From: Streptantibioticus ferralitis
GTDB lineage: Bacteria > Actinomycetota > Actinomycetes > Streptomycetales > Streptomycetaceae
Direction of reading: 5' to 3'
Assembly: GCF_029223525.1 (NCBI RefSeq)
Contig: NZ_JARHTQ010000021.1
Span: 1 to 64,000 of the forward strand
Length of the DNA: 64,000 nucleotides
Below are positions 33,692 through 58,572 of this stretch, in pieces. Position 1 is the first letter of the stretch, and the number at the start of each line of letters is the position of its first letter. The notes below the pieces were generated by a model. That model was given only the letters and a program-made list of their open reading frames with translations, made no database searches and had not been told where the DNA came from. The translations under genes and the position numbers were made by a program.

Positions 33692-35119
33692 TCAGCGGGT
33701 GCGGCGGAGCAGCGCCAGATACATCGCGTCCGTGCCGTGCAGATGCGGCCACAGTTGGATGTCGGGGCCCGCGCCGAGGTCCGGTACGCCGGGCAACAGC
33801 GGGCGGGCGTCGATCAGTTCGGCCGCTTCCGATGACGATCGCAGCACATCGTCCACCACGGCCCGGGTCTCGGCCGGGTGCGGTGAGCAGGTCGCGTACC
33901 CGACCACACCGCCGACCCGCACCGAACGCAGCGCGGTGCGCAGCAGCTCCCGCTGCAGCGGGCCGAAGCCCGCCACGTCCTCCGGACGACGCCGCCATCT
34001 GGCCTCCGGGCGGCGGCGCAGCGCGCCCAGTCCGGTGCACGGTACATCCATCAGGACACGGTCGAACGTGCCCTCCGGCCACGCCGGTCGGGTGCCGTCC
34101 GCGGTGATCACCTGGTACGGGCCCGGGTTGCCCGCCAGCGCGCGGGCGACCAGCCGGGCGCGATGCGGCTGCTTCTCGGCGGCCACCAGCCCGGCGCCGC
34201 GCTCCGCCGCGAGCGCGGCGAGCAGCGCCGCCTTGCCGCCGGGGCCCGCGCAACCGTCGAGCCAGCGGCGATCGGGCCCGTCCAGCGGAGCGTTGGCCAG
34301 CGCCAGCGCCACGAGCTGGCTGCCCTCGTCCTGAACCCCGGCGGCGCCGTCGCGCACCGCTTCCAGTGCCGCCGGATCCCCGCCGTCCGCCAGCCTTATC
34401 GCGTACGGGGACCAGCGCCCAGGCACCCCGTCCTCGCCGACCTCCGCGGCCAACTCGGCCGTGCCGCAGCGGCCCGGCCGGGCGACCAGCGTCACCTCGG
34501 GCCGCTCGTTGTCCGCTTCCAGCAGTTCCTCGATGCCGTCGCGGCCACCACCGAGCGCGTCCCACAGCGCGGAGACCACCCAGCGGGGGTGCGAGTGCAC
34601 CACGGCGAGATGGTCCTCGGGATCGTCGTCATAGGGCGGTGCCACCCGGTCCAGCCAGCCGTCGAGGTCATCGGCGGCGATCTTGCGCAGTACGGCGTTG
34701 ACAAACCGGGAGCGGCCGTCGCCCACCACGGCCCGGGCCAGCTCGACGGTGGCCGAGACCGCGGCGTGCGGCGGAATGCGGGTACCGAGCAGTTGGTGCG
34801 CGCCAAGGCTCAGCACGTCCAGCACCGGCGGGTCGACCTCGCCCAGCGGCCGGTCGACACACGCCGCGATGATGGCGTCGTAGGTGCCCTGACGGCGCAG
34901 CGTCCCGTAGACCAGCTCGGTGGCCAGGGCCGCATCGCGCCGGTCGAAGCCGTCACCGCCCCGCTCGGCGTCCCGCAGCAGGGCCGGAAGCACGAGGTTG
35001 GCGTACGCGTCGCGCTCGTCCACCGCCCGCAGCGCGTCATAGGCGAGTTTGCGAACCGGATCGGGGTTCGGGCGGCGGTAGCGCGGCTTGCCCTGCGGAC
35101 GGCGGGGGCGGGAGTTCAT
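33692..35119 (-). CDS. rsmB: 16S rRNA (cytosine-967-C5) methyltransferase
   Basis: 475 residues. An N-terminal NusB-like RNA-binding domain (about 20-160), then an SAM-dependent methyltransferase domain with SAM loop [17 protein letters not shown], and the two catalytic cysteine motifs [19 protein letters not shown] (split after DVPCTG) and [11 protein letters not shown]. Methylates C967 of 16S rRNA. ATG at 35119 has GGAG upstream; the open frame continues far upstream without conserved sequence. Third gene in the def-fmt-rsmB order, but 272 bases separate it from fmt. Confidence 0.95.
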
Positions 35120-35320
35120 CGGGAAGGTGCTCCGGAAATCAGCTGTGTACGGGCCGCCTGGGCGGCAGGCCTCCCCCAGCCTACGGCTTGCCCGCCGGCC
35201 AGGCTGGCCCAGGTCTTCCCGGAACCGCGGGTCCGCAGCTTCGTGGATGCTCGCCGTCCCGGCGGGAAAACGTGATCGGGGCCCGCCCCCCGACGCCCTT
35301 GGGGGCCGCGACGGCGAGCA

Positions 35321-35348
35321 ACCCCCACGGCGCGGACCGGAGGTGTCC
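35321..35348. repeat. Dispersed intergenic repeat, copy 2
   Basis: Begins ACCCCCACGGCGCGGACCGG; 25 of 28 bases match 20501-20528. Located in the 272-base fmt-rsmB gap, which otherwise shows only GC-rich low-complexity sequence. Confidence 0.5.
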
Positions 35349-35391
35349 ACACCCCCGCACCCCAACGAAGACCCGTCGGCGCACAAGAGCC

Positions 35392-36345
35392 CTAGGCGCC
35401 GGCCAGGTCCCCGAACCCCTCGCCGGAGGCGATCCGTACGCCACGGGCCCAATCCGCCGCCCGCATCCGCTTCTTGCCCTGCGGTTGCACCTCCGTGAGC
35501 TCGACGGCGTGCGAGCCGGTCCCCACGTACACCGCGGACTTGGTCACGGCGAGTTCGCCCGGCGCGAGCCGCAGGTCCGCACGGTCCGCCAGGAGCTTCA
35601 CCGGTGCCGCGAGCTTGAGGCGCTCCCCCTGGAAGACGGTCCACGCCCCGGGCGCGGGCGTGCACGCCCGGACCACGCGGTCCACCCGCAGCGCGGGCGC
35701 GTTCCAGTCGACGCGGGCGTTGTCGACGGTGATCTTCGGGGCCAGCGTGATGCCCTCGGAAGGCTGCGGCCGGGCCTGCAGCGTGCCGTCCTCGATGCCG
35801 TCCATCGTGGCCGCCAGCAGCCCCGCGCCGGAGCGCGCGAGCCGGTCCAGCAGTGCGCCGCTGGTGTCGTCGGACCGTACGACTTCGGTGAGCACACCGT
35901 AGACCGGGCCGGAGTCCAGTCCCTCTTCGATGAGGAACGTGGACGCACCGGTCACTTCGTCGCCCGCCAGCACGGCATGCTGCACCGGCGCCGCGCCACG
36001 CCACGCGGGCAGCAGCGAGAAGTGCAGGTTGACCCAGCCGTGGGCGGGAATCTCCAGTGCCGCCTTGGGCAGCAGGGCGCCGTACGCGACGACCGGGCAG
36101 CAGTCCGGGGCGATCTCGCCCAGCCGGGCGAGGAAGTCCTCGTCGCGCGGCCGGTTCGGCTTGAGCACCTCGATACCGGCTTCCTCGGCACGCTGCGCGA
36201 CCGGGCTCGCCACCAGCTTGCGGCCGCGGCCGGCGGGCGCGTCGGGCCGGGTGACGACGGCCGCGACCTCATGCCGGTCGGACGCCAGCAGGGCCTCCAG
36301 AGCGGGGACGGCGACTTCGGGGGTACCGGCGAAGACAAGCCTCAT
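35392..36345 (-). CDS. fmt: Methionyl-tRNA formyltransferase
   Basis: 317 residues. Formylates Met-tRNAi using 10-formyl-THF. The catalytic Asn-His-Asp set is present ([14 protein letters not shown] and [10 protein letters not shown]), and the C-terminal OB-fold tRNA-binding domain (about 205-317) contains [14 protein letters not shown]. Starts at ATG 36345, 43 bases after the def stop. Loss of Def function next door (see 36389) would matter because formyl groups added by Fmt must be removed. Confidence 0.96.
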
Positions 36346-36388
36346 CGGGGTGCGGTGCCTTTCGAGAAGGAGCGTGGAACCGGCGGAC

Positions 36389-36933
36389 TCAACGCGCGCG
36401 GCCGAATGTGCTGTGCGGGGAGACCCGGACCTGCGGTGCGGGCTCGCCCGCCCACTCGGCCTCCCGGATGGCCTTCATCGCCGCCTTGCGCTGCTCGGGG
36501 TCGAGCCGGTCGATGAAGATGATGCCGTCGAGATGGTCTGTCTCGTGCTGTATGCAGCGGGCGAGCAGTTGCGTTCCCTCGACGGTGACCGGGTCGCCGT
36601 ACATGTTGAAGCCCTGGCGACGACGCCGTACGCCCGCTTGCAGTCGAACCGCAGCCCCGGCAGCGACAGACAGCCCTCGGGGCCGTCCTGCTCCTCGTCG
36701 GTCAGCGTCAGGTCGGGGTTGACCAGATGCCCGAGTTCGCCGTCGACGTGATAGGTGAACACCCGCAGCGAAACGCCGAGTTGCGGCGCGGCCAGGCCCG
36801 CACCCGGCGCGTCGACCATAGTGTCGGTGAGGTCCTTGACGAGGGTGCGTAGTTCCTTGTCGAAGACGGTGACCGGCTGCGCCTTCATACGCAGCACCGG
36901 ATCGCCGAAGAGGTGGATCGGCATCACGGACAC
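36389..36933 (-). pseudogene. def: Peptide deformylase gene, frameshifted
   Basis: Read in two frames, the locus encodes a complete 181-residue class deformylase: GAGLAAPQLGV (motif 1), EGCLSLPG (motif 2, metal Cys) in the first frame (36933 to about 36613), then HETDHLDG (motif 3, two metal His) in the second (about 36612 to 36389). The frames join at a run CCC at 36612-36614, where the homologous sequence (...VVA, then GFNMYGDP) needs one more C. As given, translation leaves frame after VVAR, losing the metal-binding helix. Either a real single-base deletion or a homopolymer sequencing error. Streptomycetes usually carry more than one def gene, so a true null could be tolerated. Confidence 0.85.
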
Positions 36934-37189
36934 AGAACGGACTCCCGTCGACGGGGGGCGGAGCGAGGTTGGCGCGGAGCGGCCTCCCAGTCTATGGCGG
37001 TCTGTGCACCGGCGGATTCAGGGGCGTACGGAAGTGCGTACGCCTCTTCCGTGTCTACTCACGCCCCTTAAGCGTGACCCGATGGGCTGCTGACGCGTTG
37101 GTCAAGACAGATTGACCGAAAACGGGCCGCGACACGGTCCGTTCGCAACCCGACAAACTCACAGCATCGCCGGTTCGAGAGGCTTGTTC

Positions 37190-37699
37190 ATGGCCGACCA
37201 CGCAACCCACGACGCCCAGGCACGGGCCAGTCTGCACCTCCTGGTGCGGGATATCGAGCGGGTCCGCCGGCAGGTGGACGCGCTGCGCACCCTCACCGCC
37301 CAGCTGGGCAATGTCTACCGCCCGAGGCGCAGCGGACCCGCCGCCGGATTCGTCGTATACGGCCGGGCCCCGGCACCAACCGTGCGGCTCGCCCAAGAGC
37401 TGCGGGACAGCGTCGAGACCCTGGTCACCGCCGCTGTCGACTTCGACCGGTCGTTGGGCTTCTCCTGGGACGCGGTGGGCTCGGCGCTCGGAGTGACCAA
37501 GCAGGCCGTGCACCGGCGCTACGGGACCCGCCGGGCCACCGCGTCCGGCGGCGAGGACGAGGCTGGGCACACCGCGCCGACCCCGACCCGTACGGTGCCC
37601 GCCGCGCGCTCGGTACCCATGGGTGCGCCGCAGTCCGGAAGCGCCGCGCTCCGGGACGAGGCCTTCCCCGGCGCGCTGCCGGGGCCGCGCAACGGCTGA
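37190..37699 (+). CDS. Small protein with helix-turn-helix, function unknown
   Basis: 169 residues. N-terminal helical stretch ([21 protein letters not shown]), possibly coiled-coil, then [23 protein letters not shown] (about 84-106), a helix-turn-helix of sigma-factor-like or XRE-like appearance, and a disordered Pro/Ala-rich tail. I recall such a gene next to def/priA in other Streptomyces but know no function. ATG 37190 has GAGAGG upstream. An inverted repeat GGTCAA-N6-TTGACC (37100-37117) lies in front of it. Confidence 0.75.
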
Positions 37700-37741
37700 C
37701 GACACGGCAGGCGGACGCCAACGCCTGGCCGGCCCGCACAA

Positions 37742-37789
37742 CACCGCCCCGCCGCCCGCGACGCCGACACGCCGGGCATCGGGGCGGTG
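37742..37789. terminator. Terminator-like inverted repeat between convergent genes
   Basis: CACCGCCCCG at 37742-37751 and CGGGGCGGTG at 37780-37789 with a 28-base loop, between the HTH gene (+) and priA (-). Confidence 0.45.
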
Positions 37790-37850
37790 GCATTGGGCGG
37801 CAGCTCGCGGCGGTGAGCGCGAGGGGCGGGCCCGGGCGGCGGGCGCCCCG

Positions 37851-40022
37851 TCAGCCGATGTCCGGCGGGTCCACCCGTACCCGTACCGGCTCGGTCTGCT
37901 TACGGGCGATCCGGGCCACCTGTGCCGCCTTCAGCGCGGCGGCCAGCGCTCCGCCGCTGCCCGATGGCACCCGGAGCAGCACCCGCTCCCACTCCTCGCC
38001 GGGCGGTGGGTCGCCCATCCGCCGGGGGCGTCCGGGCGGTGCGGCTGGAACCGGCACCGGGCCCAACCGGTCGGTGCCGTCCGGCAGTTCGGCGTTCTCC
38101 AGCAGATCGGTGACCGCTGCCGCGGTGCCGGTCACCGAGGCCATCCGGGATACCGGCGGGAAGCCGAGCTCCGCCCGCTCCGCCAGTTCCCGTACCGCGT
38201 GCCCGACCGGGTCCCAGCGCACCAGCGCCTGCACCGGGCGCAGGCCGGGCTCGGCGAGCACGGCGACGGTGCCGCCCTCGGTCGCGGGGCGGACCAGCGA
38301 GGCCGCGGCCAGCCAGCGTCGTAGCGCCTCCTCGCCCGCGCGTAGATCCGGGCGGTTCAGCAGTGCCCAGCCGTCGAGGAGCAGCGCGGCCGCGTAACCG
38401 CCGTCCGCGACCGGCTCGGCGCCCGGCGTCGAGATGACCAGCGCTGGCTGATCGGGCACCCGGGCCAGTACCGCGTCCCGCCCCGAGGTGCGCACCGGCA
38501 CCGCGGGGAAGGCACGGCCCAACTCGTCGGCGGTGCGGCGGGCGCCGACCACCTGGGCGCGCAACCGGTTCCCGGCGCACTCCCGGCAGTGCCATGCGGC
38601 CTCCGGCCGTCCGCACCACGCACAGTGCAGCGTCCCACCGGACTGCGGTGACCCGGTGAGTTCCAGCGGCCCGGCACACTTTGTGCAGCGCGCGGGTTCG
38701 CGGCAGCGCTCGCAGGCCAGCCGGGGCACGTATCCGCGCCGCGGCACCTGGACCAGCACCGGCCCGCGCAGCAGCGCATCGCGGGTGACCTGCCAGGCGA
38801 GGCTGGGCAGCCGGGCGGCGCGCGCCGCCGGGTCGCGGGCCTGGTCGTCGTCACCGACGGTGCGGATCAGCGGGGCGGCGGTACGCACCTCCGCACGGGA
38901 CGCGGTGAGCGGCGACGCCCAGCGGGTGTCGACGAGTTGGGCGCCCTCCACGGTGACCGAGAGCCCGCCGAGCAGGAAGGCGGCATGCTCGTCGGCGGCG
39001 CGCAGCAGCAGGACGTCACGGGCATGCGGCTGCGGTGCGTGCGGTTCCGCATGGCTGGAGTCGCCGTCGTCCCACAGTGCGACGAGTCCCAGGTCGGCCA
39101 CCGGCGCGAACATCGCGGCACGCGTTCCCACGACGGCGCGCACCGCGCCGCGGTTGACGGCGAGCCACCGCCGGTAGCGCTCTTCCGGGCCGCTGTCGGC
39201 GGTGAGGACGACATGGTGGCGGTCGCCGAGCAGCGCGGTGAGCGCGGCGTCGACCCGGGCCACCGCCCGGCCGTCCGGCAGTACCGCGAGCGCACCGCGC
39301 CCCGAGGCCAACGTCGCGGCCAGCGCGCGGGCGAGTTCGTCCGGCCAGTGCGGGCCGGGGAGCGCGGTCCATACCGCCCGCGGGCTGGCACCGCTCGCCA
39401 GTGCGTCCAGGTAGCCGGGGCCGATGGCATATCGAGTCCAGCTGCCGGGGTCCGGCTTCGGCGGCGGAGCGGGAGCCTGCGGGATCGGCCCGTTCTCCGC
39501 GCGGGCACGCCGCGGCGGCACCGCCAACTGCACGACATCGGCGAGCGCCCCCGCGTACCGGTCGGCGACCGCCCGGCACAGCCGCAACAGCCCCGGCCCC
39601 AACACCGGTTCCGGAGAAAGCACTTGAGCCAGCGGGGCGAGCGGCCCGCGGTAGTCACTCTCGGGCAGCCGCTCCACGATGAACCCGTCGTGCAGCTCCC
39701 CGCCTTCCCTCCGCCCCTTCACCACCCGGGCACCGAACCGCACCCGGACCCGCACCCCCGGCTGGGCCTGCTCGTCCATCGCTTCGGGAACCGCGTAGTC
39801 AAAGAACTGGTCGAGGTGGATCAGCCCCTTGTCCACCAGCACCCGGGCCACCGGCAACTGGGCCGCGAGCGCCGCACCACGCCAGGTACGCGGCTTGGCC
39901 CGCGGCTCCTTCGCCTTGCGCACCGCCTCCCGGATCAGCGCGAGCTGCTCCCCCCCAGGCACCGGCTCCGCCTGGGGCACGCCCGCCGGGCCCTGCCCCG
40001 GACGCTCGTTTTCGCTGCTCAC
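37851..40022 (-). CDS. priA: Primosomal protein N' (PriA), actinobacterial form lacking helicase motifs
   Basis: 723 residues. The N-terminal 3'-DNA-binding domain (about 50-150) and the paired zinc-binding cysteines (CERCREPARCTKC, then CAWCGRPEAAWHCREC) are intact, so the replication-restart scaffold is present. Where other PriA proteins have Walker A (GKT) and DEEH, this one reads LPGPHWPDELARAL and LWDDGDSSHA. ATP-driven unwinding is therefore not expected, as noted for mycobacterial PriA. It should still recognise forks and load DnaB partners. Downstream of metK in the same direction. Confidence 0.9.
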   Translation of the reverse strand: MSSENERPGQGPAGVPQAEPVPGGEQLALIREAVRKAKEPRAKPRTWRGAALAAQLPVARVLVDKGLIHLDQFFDYAVPEAMDEQAQPGVRVRVRFGARVVKGRREGGELHDGFIVERLPESDYRGPLAPLAQVLSPEPVLGPGLLRLCRAVADRYAGALADVVQLAVPPRRARAENGPIPQAPAPPPKPDPGSWTRYAIGPGYLDALASGASPRAVWTALPGPHWPDELARALAATLASGRGALAVLPDGRAVARVDAALTALLGDRHHVVLTADSGPEERYRRWLAVNRGAVRAVVGTRAAMFAPVADLGLVALWDDGDSSHAEPHAPQPHARDVLLLRAADEHAAFLLGGLSVTVEGAQLVDTRWASPLTASRAEVRTAAPLIRTVGDDDQARDPAARAARLPSLAWQVTRDALLRGPVLVQVPRRGYVPRLACERCREPARCTKCAGPLELTGSPQSGGTLHCAWCGRPEAAWHCRECAGNRLRAQVVGARRTADELGRAFPAVPVRTSGRDAVLARVPDQPALVISTPGAEPVADGGYAAALLLDGWALLNRPDLRAGEEALRRWLAAASLVRPATEGGTVAVLAEPGLRPVQALVRWDPVGHAVRELAERAELGFPPVSRMASVTGTAAAVTDLLENAELPDGTDRLGPVPVPAAPPGRPRRMGDPPPGEEWERVLLRVPSGSGGALAAALKAAQVARIARKQTEPVRVRVDPPDIG

Positions 40023-46704: not shown

Positions 46705-50008
<3,304 letters not shown>

Positions 50009-56582: not shown

Positions 56583-57689
56583 CTACAAGGCGAGCAGTTC
56601 CTTGGTCGTGATGGTGAGTAGCTCGGGCCCGCCGTCCGCCGCTGGGCGTACGACGAGTGTGTCATCGATCCGGACACCGCCCCGGTCCGGGAAGTGGACC
56701 CCCGGCTCGACGGTGACCGGCACACAAGCGTCCAGTTTACCCATGGCTGACGGGGTGAGCCGAGGGTCCTCGTCGATTTCGAGTCCCACGCCGTGTCCGG
56801 TCCACGATCCGGCGGCCTCGCCATGCCCCGCCCGCTCCAGTACCTGGCGCGCCGCGAGGTCCACTTCCCGGCAGGCAGCGCCCGGCGCGAGAGCCTCCCG
56901 GCCCGCCCGCTGGGCGTCGAAAACCACGTCGTACAGGTCGATCTGCCAGTTCGCGGGCGCGGCGCCGATGACGAACGTACGGCCGACCTCGCACCGGTAG
57001 CCGCGGTAGCAGGCACCGAGGCAGACGGTGAGGAAGTCGCCCTCCTCGACCCGCCGGTCCGTGGGGCGGTGCCGGGCGGCACCGGAATGCGGTCCGGTGC
57101 CGACGTAGGTGGGGAACGCCGGGCCGTCCGCGCCGTGATCGGCGAGCCGCCGCTCCAGCTCCAGCGCGAGATGGCGCTCGGTGCGGCCGACGAGGATGGA
57201 CTCCAGTAGCTCGCCCAGCGCCTGGTCGGTGATCTCCGCGGCGATCCGCAGACAGGCGATCTCCTCCTCGTCCTTGACCAGGCGCAGCTGTTCCACGGCC
57301 TGCCCGAGGTCGAGGAGGCGCAGGCCCGGTGTGACCGAGGCGATGGCCCGGTGCCGGGAGACGGTCAGATGGTGCTCCTCCACCGCCAGGGTGTCCGCGC
57401 CCAGTCCCGGGGCGAGATCGGCCGCGGCCACCGCCGGATCGCCGTCCGGCGACGGTAGGACCACCCGGCGGAGGTCCTCCGGCGGGGTGCCCTCGCCCGG
57501 CTCCCCGTACACCCGGCGGCGGTGGACCAGCACGTCCTCCGCGGGCGCCAGCATCAGTACGGCGTCGGACGGCGCCCAACCGGTCAGATAGCGGATGTTG
57601 GCGGGGCGGGAGACCAGTGCCGCGGCGGATCCAGCCGCCGCGCACCGCTCCCGTAGACGCATCCGGCGGGAAGCGTGCACCTCGGACAT
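56583..57689 (-). CDS. M24-fold protein with altered metal site (aminopeptidase P-like)
   Basis: 368 residues with the creatinase-like N-terminal domain ([10 protein letters not shown]) and the M24 fold. Aligned by eye to the five metal ligands of aminopeptidase P, two remain: His in TGHGVGLE and Glu in TVEPGVHF. The others differ: the first Asp is Cys in [12 protein letters not shown], the second is Glu in RCEVGRTF, and the last Glu is Asp in GVRIDDTLV. Dinuclear metal peptidase activity is therefore doubtful. It sits first in M24-efp-nusB, suggesting a translation-related role that is not strictly catalytic. ATG 57689; no ribosome-binding site stands out. Confidence 0.8.
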
Positions 57690-57802
57690 GTGCCGAGCGT
57701 ACGCGGCACTTGGCCGGCAGACCTCTGGGCGCGTCCGGACGGGTCGCGGATGGGCTTCGGTCAATCGGTCCGGCGATACGGCGTACTGGCCGGACTTCGT
57801 GG

Positions 57803-57852
57803 ACGAACATGCTCGTCAAGTACTTGTTCGTAACGAACATGTTCGTTACGGT
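57803..57852 (+). promoter_or_regulatory. Leaderless promoter and palindromic operators of the TetR module
   Basis: TTGTTC (57824-57829), 17 bases, TACGGT (57847-57852): the start would fall at the ATG 57859, so the mRNA is probably leaderless. A perfect 22-bp palindrome (57829-57850), each half reading CGTAACGAACA, covers the spacer and -10. A weaker copy, ACGAACATGCTCGT (57804-57817), lies just upstream. These fit operators of the adjacent TetR protein. Confidence 0.75.
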
Positions 57853-57858
57853 GCTGGC

Positions 57859-58572
57859 ATGACAGTTCATTCCGACGGGCCGCGCAGTCGCCGGGAGCGG
57901 CCGGCCAAGCCGGCGCTGACCCGGCCGGGCATCATCGCCGCCGCGGTGGAGATCATGCGGGGCGAGGGCCTGGAGCGGGTCACCATGCGGCGGCTGGCGC
58001 AGCAGCTGGACACCGGCCCGGCCTCGTTGTACGTGTACGTCCGCAACACCGCCGAGCTGCACGCGGCGGTCCTGGACGAGTTGCTCGGCGCGGTCGACCT
58101 GACCCCGGTTCACGCCGAGGGCGACTGGCGCGAGCGGCTGGAGACGGTGCTCGTCTCGTATACGACCGTGCTGTTCGAGCACCCCGGGCTGGCCCGGTCG
58201 GCGCTGGTGGCGCGCCCCAGCGGGGAGCACTACCTGACGCTGATCGAGGGACTGCTGGCGCTGCTGGACGAGGGCGGCGTTCCGGGCGCCCAGGCCGCCT
58301 GGGGAGTGGACGTGCTGCTGCAGCACGCCACCGCGACCGCGGCCGAACACGCCACCCGCGGCAGGGCAGCCGGCGCCCAGCAGGAGTGGGACGCGCTCAC
58401 CCGGGCCCTGCACGGCGCACGCGAGCAGACGCATCCGCACATCGCCGCACTCGCCGCCGAACTGCTCTCCGGGGCGCCGCAGGACCGGCTGTCCTGGGGA
58501 TTCCACATGTTGATCAACGGCATCGCCCAGACCCCCAGGCCGACCCCGTCCCAAGAACCACCGCGCCACTGA
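57859..58572 (+). CDS. TetR-family transcriptional regulator
   Basis: 237 residues. HTH at about 24-68 (IIAAAVEIMRGEGLERVTMRRL, in two parts; then LDTGPASLYVYVRNTAELH) with a TetR_C-type ligand domain (about 85-210). The HTH and ligand domain resemble the tetracycline-repressor subgroup. ATG 57859 lies at the predicted transcript start. Likely represses itself and the flavin monooxygenase 41 bases downstream through the palindrome at 57829-57850. Confidence 0.92.
   Translation: MTVHSDGPRSRRERPAKPALTRPGIIAAAVEIMRGEGLERVTMRRLAQQLDTGPASLYVYVRNTAELHAAVLDELLGAVDLTPVHAEGDWRERLETVLVSYTTVLFEHPGLARSALVARPSGEHYLTLIEGLLALLDEGGVPGAQAAWGVDVLLQHATATAAEHATRGRAAGAQQEWDALTRALHGAREQTHPHIAALAAELLSGAPQDRLSWGFHMLINGIAQTPRPTPSQEPPRH

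Follow-up and report, generated by a model that had tools for sequence, protein, structure and literature searches.

Split reading frame of the fmt-linked peptide deformylase gene in a draft genome of Streptantibioticus ferralitis: recent deletion or assembly error

The peptide deformylase gene (def) beside fmt in the soil actinomycete Streptantibioticus ferralitis is coded in two reading frames, which raises the question of whether the gene is disabled in the living strain or whether a base was dropped from the draft sequence. If the loss is real, a second question is how the cell tolerates it. We analyzed the locus in the window, a stretch of 64,000 nucleotides at the start of contig NZ_JARHTQ010000021.1 (assembly GCF_029223525.1), together with the rest of the draft and related genomes of the family. 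Two close relatives, referred to as congeners, are G001 and G002. The features of the locus are as follows.

36610 to 36933, minus strand: N-terminal part of def with GAGLAAPQ and EGCLSLPG (PF01327 profile positions 2-114; 95% identity to the G002 protein over 108 residues)
36392 to 36616, minus strand: C-terminal part of def in the other frame with HETDHLDG (PF01327 profile positions 113-155; 93% identity to the G002 protein over 75 residues)
36610 to 36616, minus strand: site of the one-base frame change (alignment with both congeners; overlap of the two tblastn pieces)
36475 to 36612, minus strand: out-of-frame tail of the first def ORF, reaching a stop without the metal-binding motif (translation)
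35392 to 36345, minus strand: fmt, methionyl-tRNA formyltransferase, intact (TIGR00460, 231.4 bits against a cut-off of 201.5)
37112 to 37699, plus strand: 195-aa ORF, conserved in relatives, that separates def from the priA-like gene and runs on the opposite strand
37851 to 40022, minus strand: priA-like gene, a conserved upstream neighbor seen beside fmt in relatives

The split frame and the position of the missing base

The initial annotation described def as broken by a one-base frameshift, with the motifs GAGLAAPQ, EGCLSLPG and HETDHLDG all present, the last out of frame, and with an intact fmt next to it. Each of these points was borne out. ORF translation and profile search place the gene directly upstream of fmt on the minus strand (36933 to 36392) and give a peptide deformylase coded in two frames. 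The ORF at 36933 to 36475 (152 aa) matches positions 2-114 of the Pfam profile PF01327 with an E value of 1.7e-24, and the overlapping ORF at 36604 to 36389 matches positions 119-155 with an E value of 4.9e-11. In a six-frame search, the two pieces (36924-36610 and 36616-36488) meet at 36610-36616. Strong matches of two adjacent frames to adjoining stretches of a single profile do not arise by chance.

The first ORF contains motif I (G-x-G-x-A-A-x-Q) as GAGLAAPQ and motif II (E-G-C-x-S, whose Cys is a metal ligand) as EGCLSLPG. Motif III, HETDHLDG with the metal-binding HETDH, lies in a different frame from motifs I and II, and no single polypeptide contains all three. Taken separately, the pieces score 111 and 59.9 bits and miss the curated subfamily cut-off of NF001159 (125 bits). 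The fmt product passes the curated NCBIfam cut-off of TIGR00460.

Around the gene, an RNA element was considered and rejected, as the Rfam search of 35000-38500 returned zero matches at the gathering threshold. A search of a plasmid collection found no near-identical relative of the def locus. The 195-aa ORF at 37112-37699 (plus strand) is kept beside the priA-like gene in relatives, yet it has no Pfam match.

The congeners G001 and G002 share ~93% DNA identity with the window def over some 606 of 611 bases, and their reading frame is intact. In both, the join has one more base than in the window, and this extra base falls in an AAG (lysine) codon that precedes GGC: VVAKGFNMYGDP. The window def reads AGG at this codon. 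The initial annotation had placed the join at CCC (36612-36614) with one C missing; this location holds within a base or two, but the C run itself is disfavored by the congeners' extra base. The lost base is best placed in the AAG codon, directly beside CCC. The join codon was readable in 129 of 134 intact family genes, where it is AAG in 79, CGG in 18, CGC in 17, AGG in 12, and AAA, CGA and CGT in one each (37 with Arg codons other than AGG). Since the family varies between Lys and Arg at this position, the exact ancestral base is beyond proof.

Redundancy and conservation of the gene

The initial annotation had also offered two readings, a real break with another def copy serving, or an error. 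The six-frame search found three further full-length def genes in the genome (C66:352641-353090, C22:497197-497661 and C21:127782-128249), as the first reading requires. In each of these genes a single frame holds all three motifs. Both congeners carry close orthologues of the C66 and C22 copies, at 86-92% identity. For the C21 copy, no close orthologue is present among the congener copies compared, and the best match there is 65%. With three other def genes and an intact fmt, a deformylase-free or formylation-free cell was rejected, and the genome should not be annotated as deformylase-deficient.

We searched the DNA of 394 family genomes, found a strong fmt-linked def match in 136 (hand count) and read all 136 loci. 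A full-length protein in a single frame is encoded by 134 of them, including the intact orthologues in both congeners; this fails only in the window and at locus L267 of genome G006, which carries two other full-length def copies. Among the 134, L195 and L212 have variant motifs and pass the single-frame full-length check. A second set, the best 80 of 357 loci from named genomes, overlaps in part with the 136 and gave full-length genes at 78 loci. The remaining two are L108, which ends with its contig, and L083, which matches residues 3-161 only, in one frame.

The distribution of the fmt-linked copy is uneven. By hand count, 136 of the 144 genomes outside the group g10, the largest genus sampled and probably Streptomyces, carry it, against none of the 250 genomes within g10, where the fmt loci of 13 were read and the other 237 were judged by the lack of a strong DNA match. 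We read 17 fmt loci from genomes without the fmt-linked def (the 13 of g10 plus G010, G050, G066 and G206); each contains fmt, and at an E value of 0.01 none has a match to def. Beyond the gap, 16 of these 17 loci have the 195-aa ORF and 15 have the priA-like gene within reach, G206 being truncated by a contig end on that side. The fmt-linked def has thus been lost in more than one lineage with fmt retained, and this copy is expendable. Among the papers listed, none on its loss in Streptomyces was recognized by title or abstract opening, which is not proof of absence.

Four other genomes stand apart. G190, G212 and G012 have neither an fmt above cut-off nor an rsmB match, and are perhaps incomplete assemblies, although G190 is one contig of 11.3 Mb; G023 has only part of fmt. 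G012 is also without a def match.

Age of the break and its explanations

We lean, at somewhat better than even confidence, toward a real and very recent one-base deletion that disabled the fmt-linked def. The base would be truly absent in the living strain. The ribosome would pass the first two motifs, lose the frame ahead of the third and terminate at 36475, and the product, without the HExxH metal ligands, would likely be inactive. The cell would tolerate the loss because its three other def genes are intact and could supply the activity.

The changes private to the window lineage bear on the age of the break. Relative to the two congeners, 177 codons of def hold 17 synonymous private changes and 3 non-synonymous ones, of which one falls in the codon at the break itself. 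The ratio for def, ~0.05-0.07, is below those for fmt, rsmB and priA; rpe, read in a wrong frame, was left out of the comparison. Free drift since the split would be expected to leave some 50 non-synonymous changes (397 non-synonymous sites at a synonymous rate of ~0.13). With 3 observed against ~50 expected, the lesion spans at most a small last part of the branch, or it is unreal. The private changes in def have no sign of relaxed selection after the lesion, and no second lesion was found. Judging from these counts, the break is either very young or an assembly error.

An assembly or sequencing error, by which the strain's def is intact and the draft lacks one of its bases, is a serious possibility that we place somewhat below even. 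The strong purifying selection on either side of the break and the missing second lesion fit such an error, as do the 110 contigs of the draft and the intact state of 134 of 136 family homologues. The join, however, is not a long homopolymer, and the redundancy of def makes a real null allele tolerable.

The error rate of the draft also bears on this explanation. With the genes of G002 as reference, we scanned three contigs of the window genome for breaks (89.0, 116.9 and 39.0 kb of matched coding sequence, 245 kb in all). The window genome gave 24 flags against 18 in the reverse test on G002, in which the def mirror is counted; this similar frequency argues against an error. The 24 flags comprise 4 frame changes with a coding-like second piece, 11 with a non-coding-like second piece by a third-base test and 9 internal stops. 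Of the 4 coding-like flags, one is def itself, two sit close to predicted starts (47404-48426 of the joined C63 stretch and 125541-126353 of the joined C1 stretch), and the fourth, at 57280-58218, matches at 79% and contains a stop. Besides def, G002 has two coding-like flags, both close to predicted starts, and stops occur in 6 of its ORFs.

On re-inspection of 19 flagged ORFs of the window genome, def retained 95% and 93% identity with third-base bias on both sides of its break. Several other matches have stops in mid-ORF (for example at residues 49 and 56, 64, 91, 125, 164 and 240), and others have stops near the start. These few other unsorted breaks and stops leave some weight with an error. 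The def break is the clearest and best-supported mid-gene break in the ~245 kb; equally supported ones are rare, and further breaks in the draft are possible. This scarcity of clear breaks tips the balance only slightly toward a real mutation.

One flagged ORF deserves separate mention. The G002 gene at 102599-103846 of the joined C1 stretch (~416 aa; L305-L314, C22 of the window genome) is matched at 84% over residues 1-118 with high third-base GC, and from residue 139 the match continues in another frame. Scored as non-coding-like, it could be a second true mid-gene break.

The full enzyme might still be made by ribosomal or transcriptional slippage, which we regard as very improbable. Both halves of def appear constrained, and AGG, through which the frame passes at the join, is seldom used for Arg (3 of 160 Arg codons across fmt, rsmB and priA). 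Such slippage would be at odds with the 134 of 136 homologues that require no shift; inspection by eye found neither a slippery heptamer nor a lengthy homopolymer at the join, and the predicted folding of the RNA there is no more stable than that of shuffled sequences (z -0.66). A programmed frameshift was rejected, as the shift site is not conserved (134 of 136 genes are in one frame) and no folding signal is evident. Least probable of all is that two polypeptides function together, the second made from the ATG at 36604: a 71-aa ORF from this ATG does hold the C-terminal part, but among the 136 family genes only that of the window is split at this place, and the first ORF continues through the ATG.

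A possibly mobile deformylase gene and comparison with known systems

The C21 def adjoins genes matching TniB and TniQ above the Pfam cut-offs. The same block contains a gene that matches an HTH profile and, just below cut-off, a Mu-transposase C-terminal profile; by its position this gene may be TniA-like. A separate HTH gene is also present. The block (L289/L290, about 120680-129207) lies downstream of dnaB and was not seen beside dnaB in the congeners. Its start coincides with the end of similarity to the congener dnaB region, at 120693 against G001 and at 120676 against G002. From 129278 onward the sequence again resembles G002, but on another of its contigs. Near each end of the block lies an inverted match of 13 bases, GTGTAGGTTCTCA. 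The flanks are not neighbors in G002 and the right flank is only weakly matched in G001, so these genomes offer no clean empty site. The block looks like a transposon carrying a def.

According to PMC12690207, more than one deformylase occurs in 48% of species and extra genes are often on mobile elements, and fmt and def are adjacent in just 58% of species. These figures on multiple and mobile deformylases make it plausible that an old copy is swapped for a mobile one. In S. ferralitis, a swap may be under way, in which a def was gained beside a TniB/TniQ-type module and the ancestral fmt-linked copy has just been broken, repeating a loss completed earlier in the largest genus and in three genomes of two other genera; we consider this unlikely. 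The gain of the C21 def and the break of the fmt-linked def are only a correlation in one genome, and the two older spare copies would be enough without the C21 def.

The window def is an ordinary pseudogene or an error, a new example of an ordinary kind, and its annotation should be marked as frameshifted. If the deletion is real, it is a fresh case of redundant deformylases being turned over. This has modest importance, because the enzyme is targeted by antibiotics and, as stated in PMC12690207, susceptibility to its inhibitors can fall when an accessory copy is present.

Compared with the intact relatives among fmt-linked bacterial def genes (PF01327), the window gene is the same in sequence, motifs and place beside fmt and differs in its third motif, which is out of frame. 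The closest cases are the fmt-linked def genes of Streptantibioticus rubrisoli DSM 42083 and Streptomyces sp. RPT161 (L042 and L043, which we take to be G001 and G002). They are the same gene at ~93% DNA identity, but their frame is intact with one more base at the join. The gene at L267 of G006 is also the same gene, likewise split over two frames in a genome with other def copies. Unlike in the window, its frame changes just before EGCLSLPG, pointing to an independent event or error.
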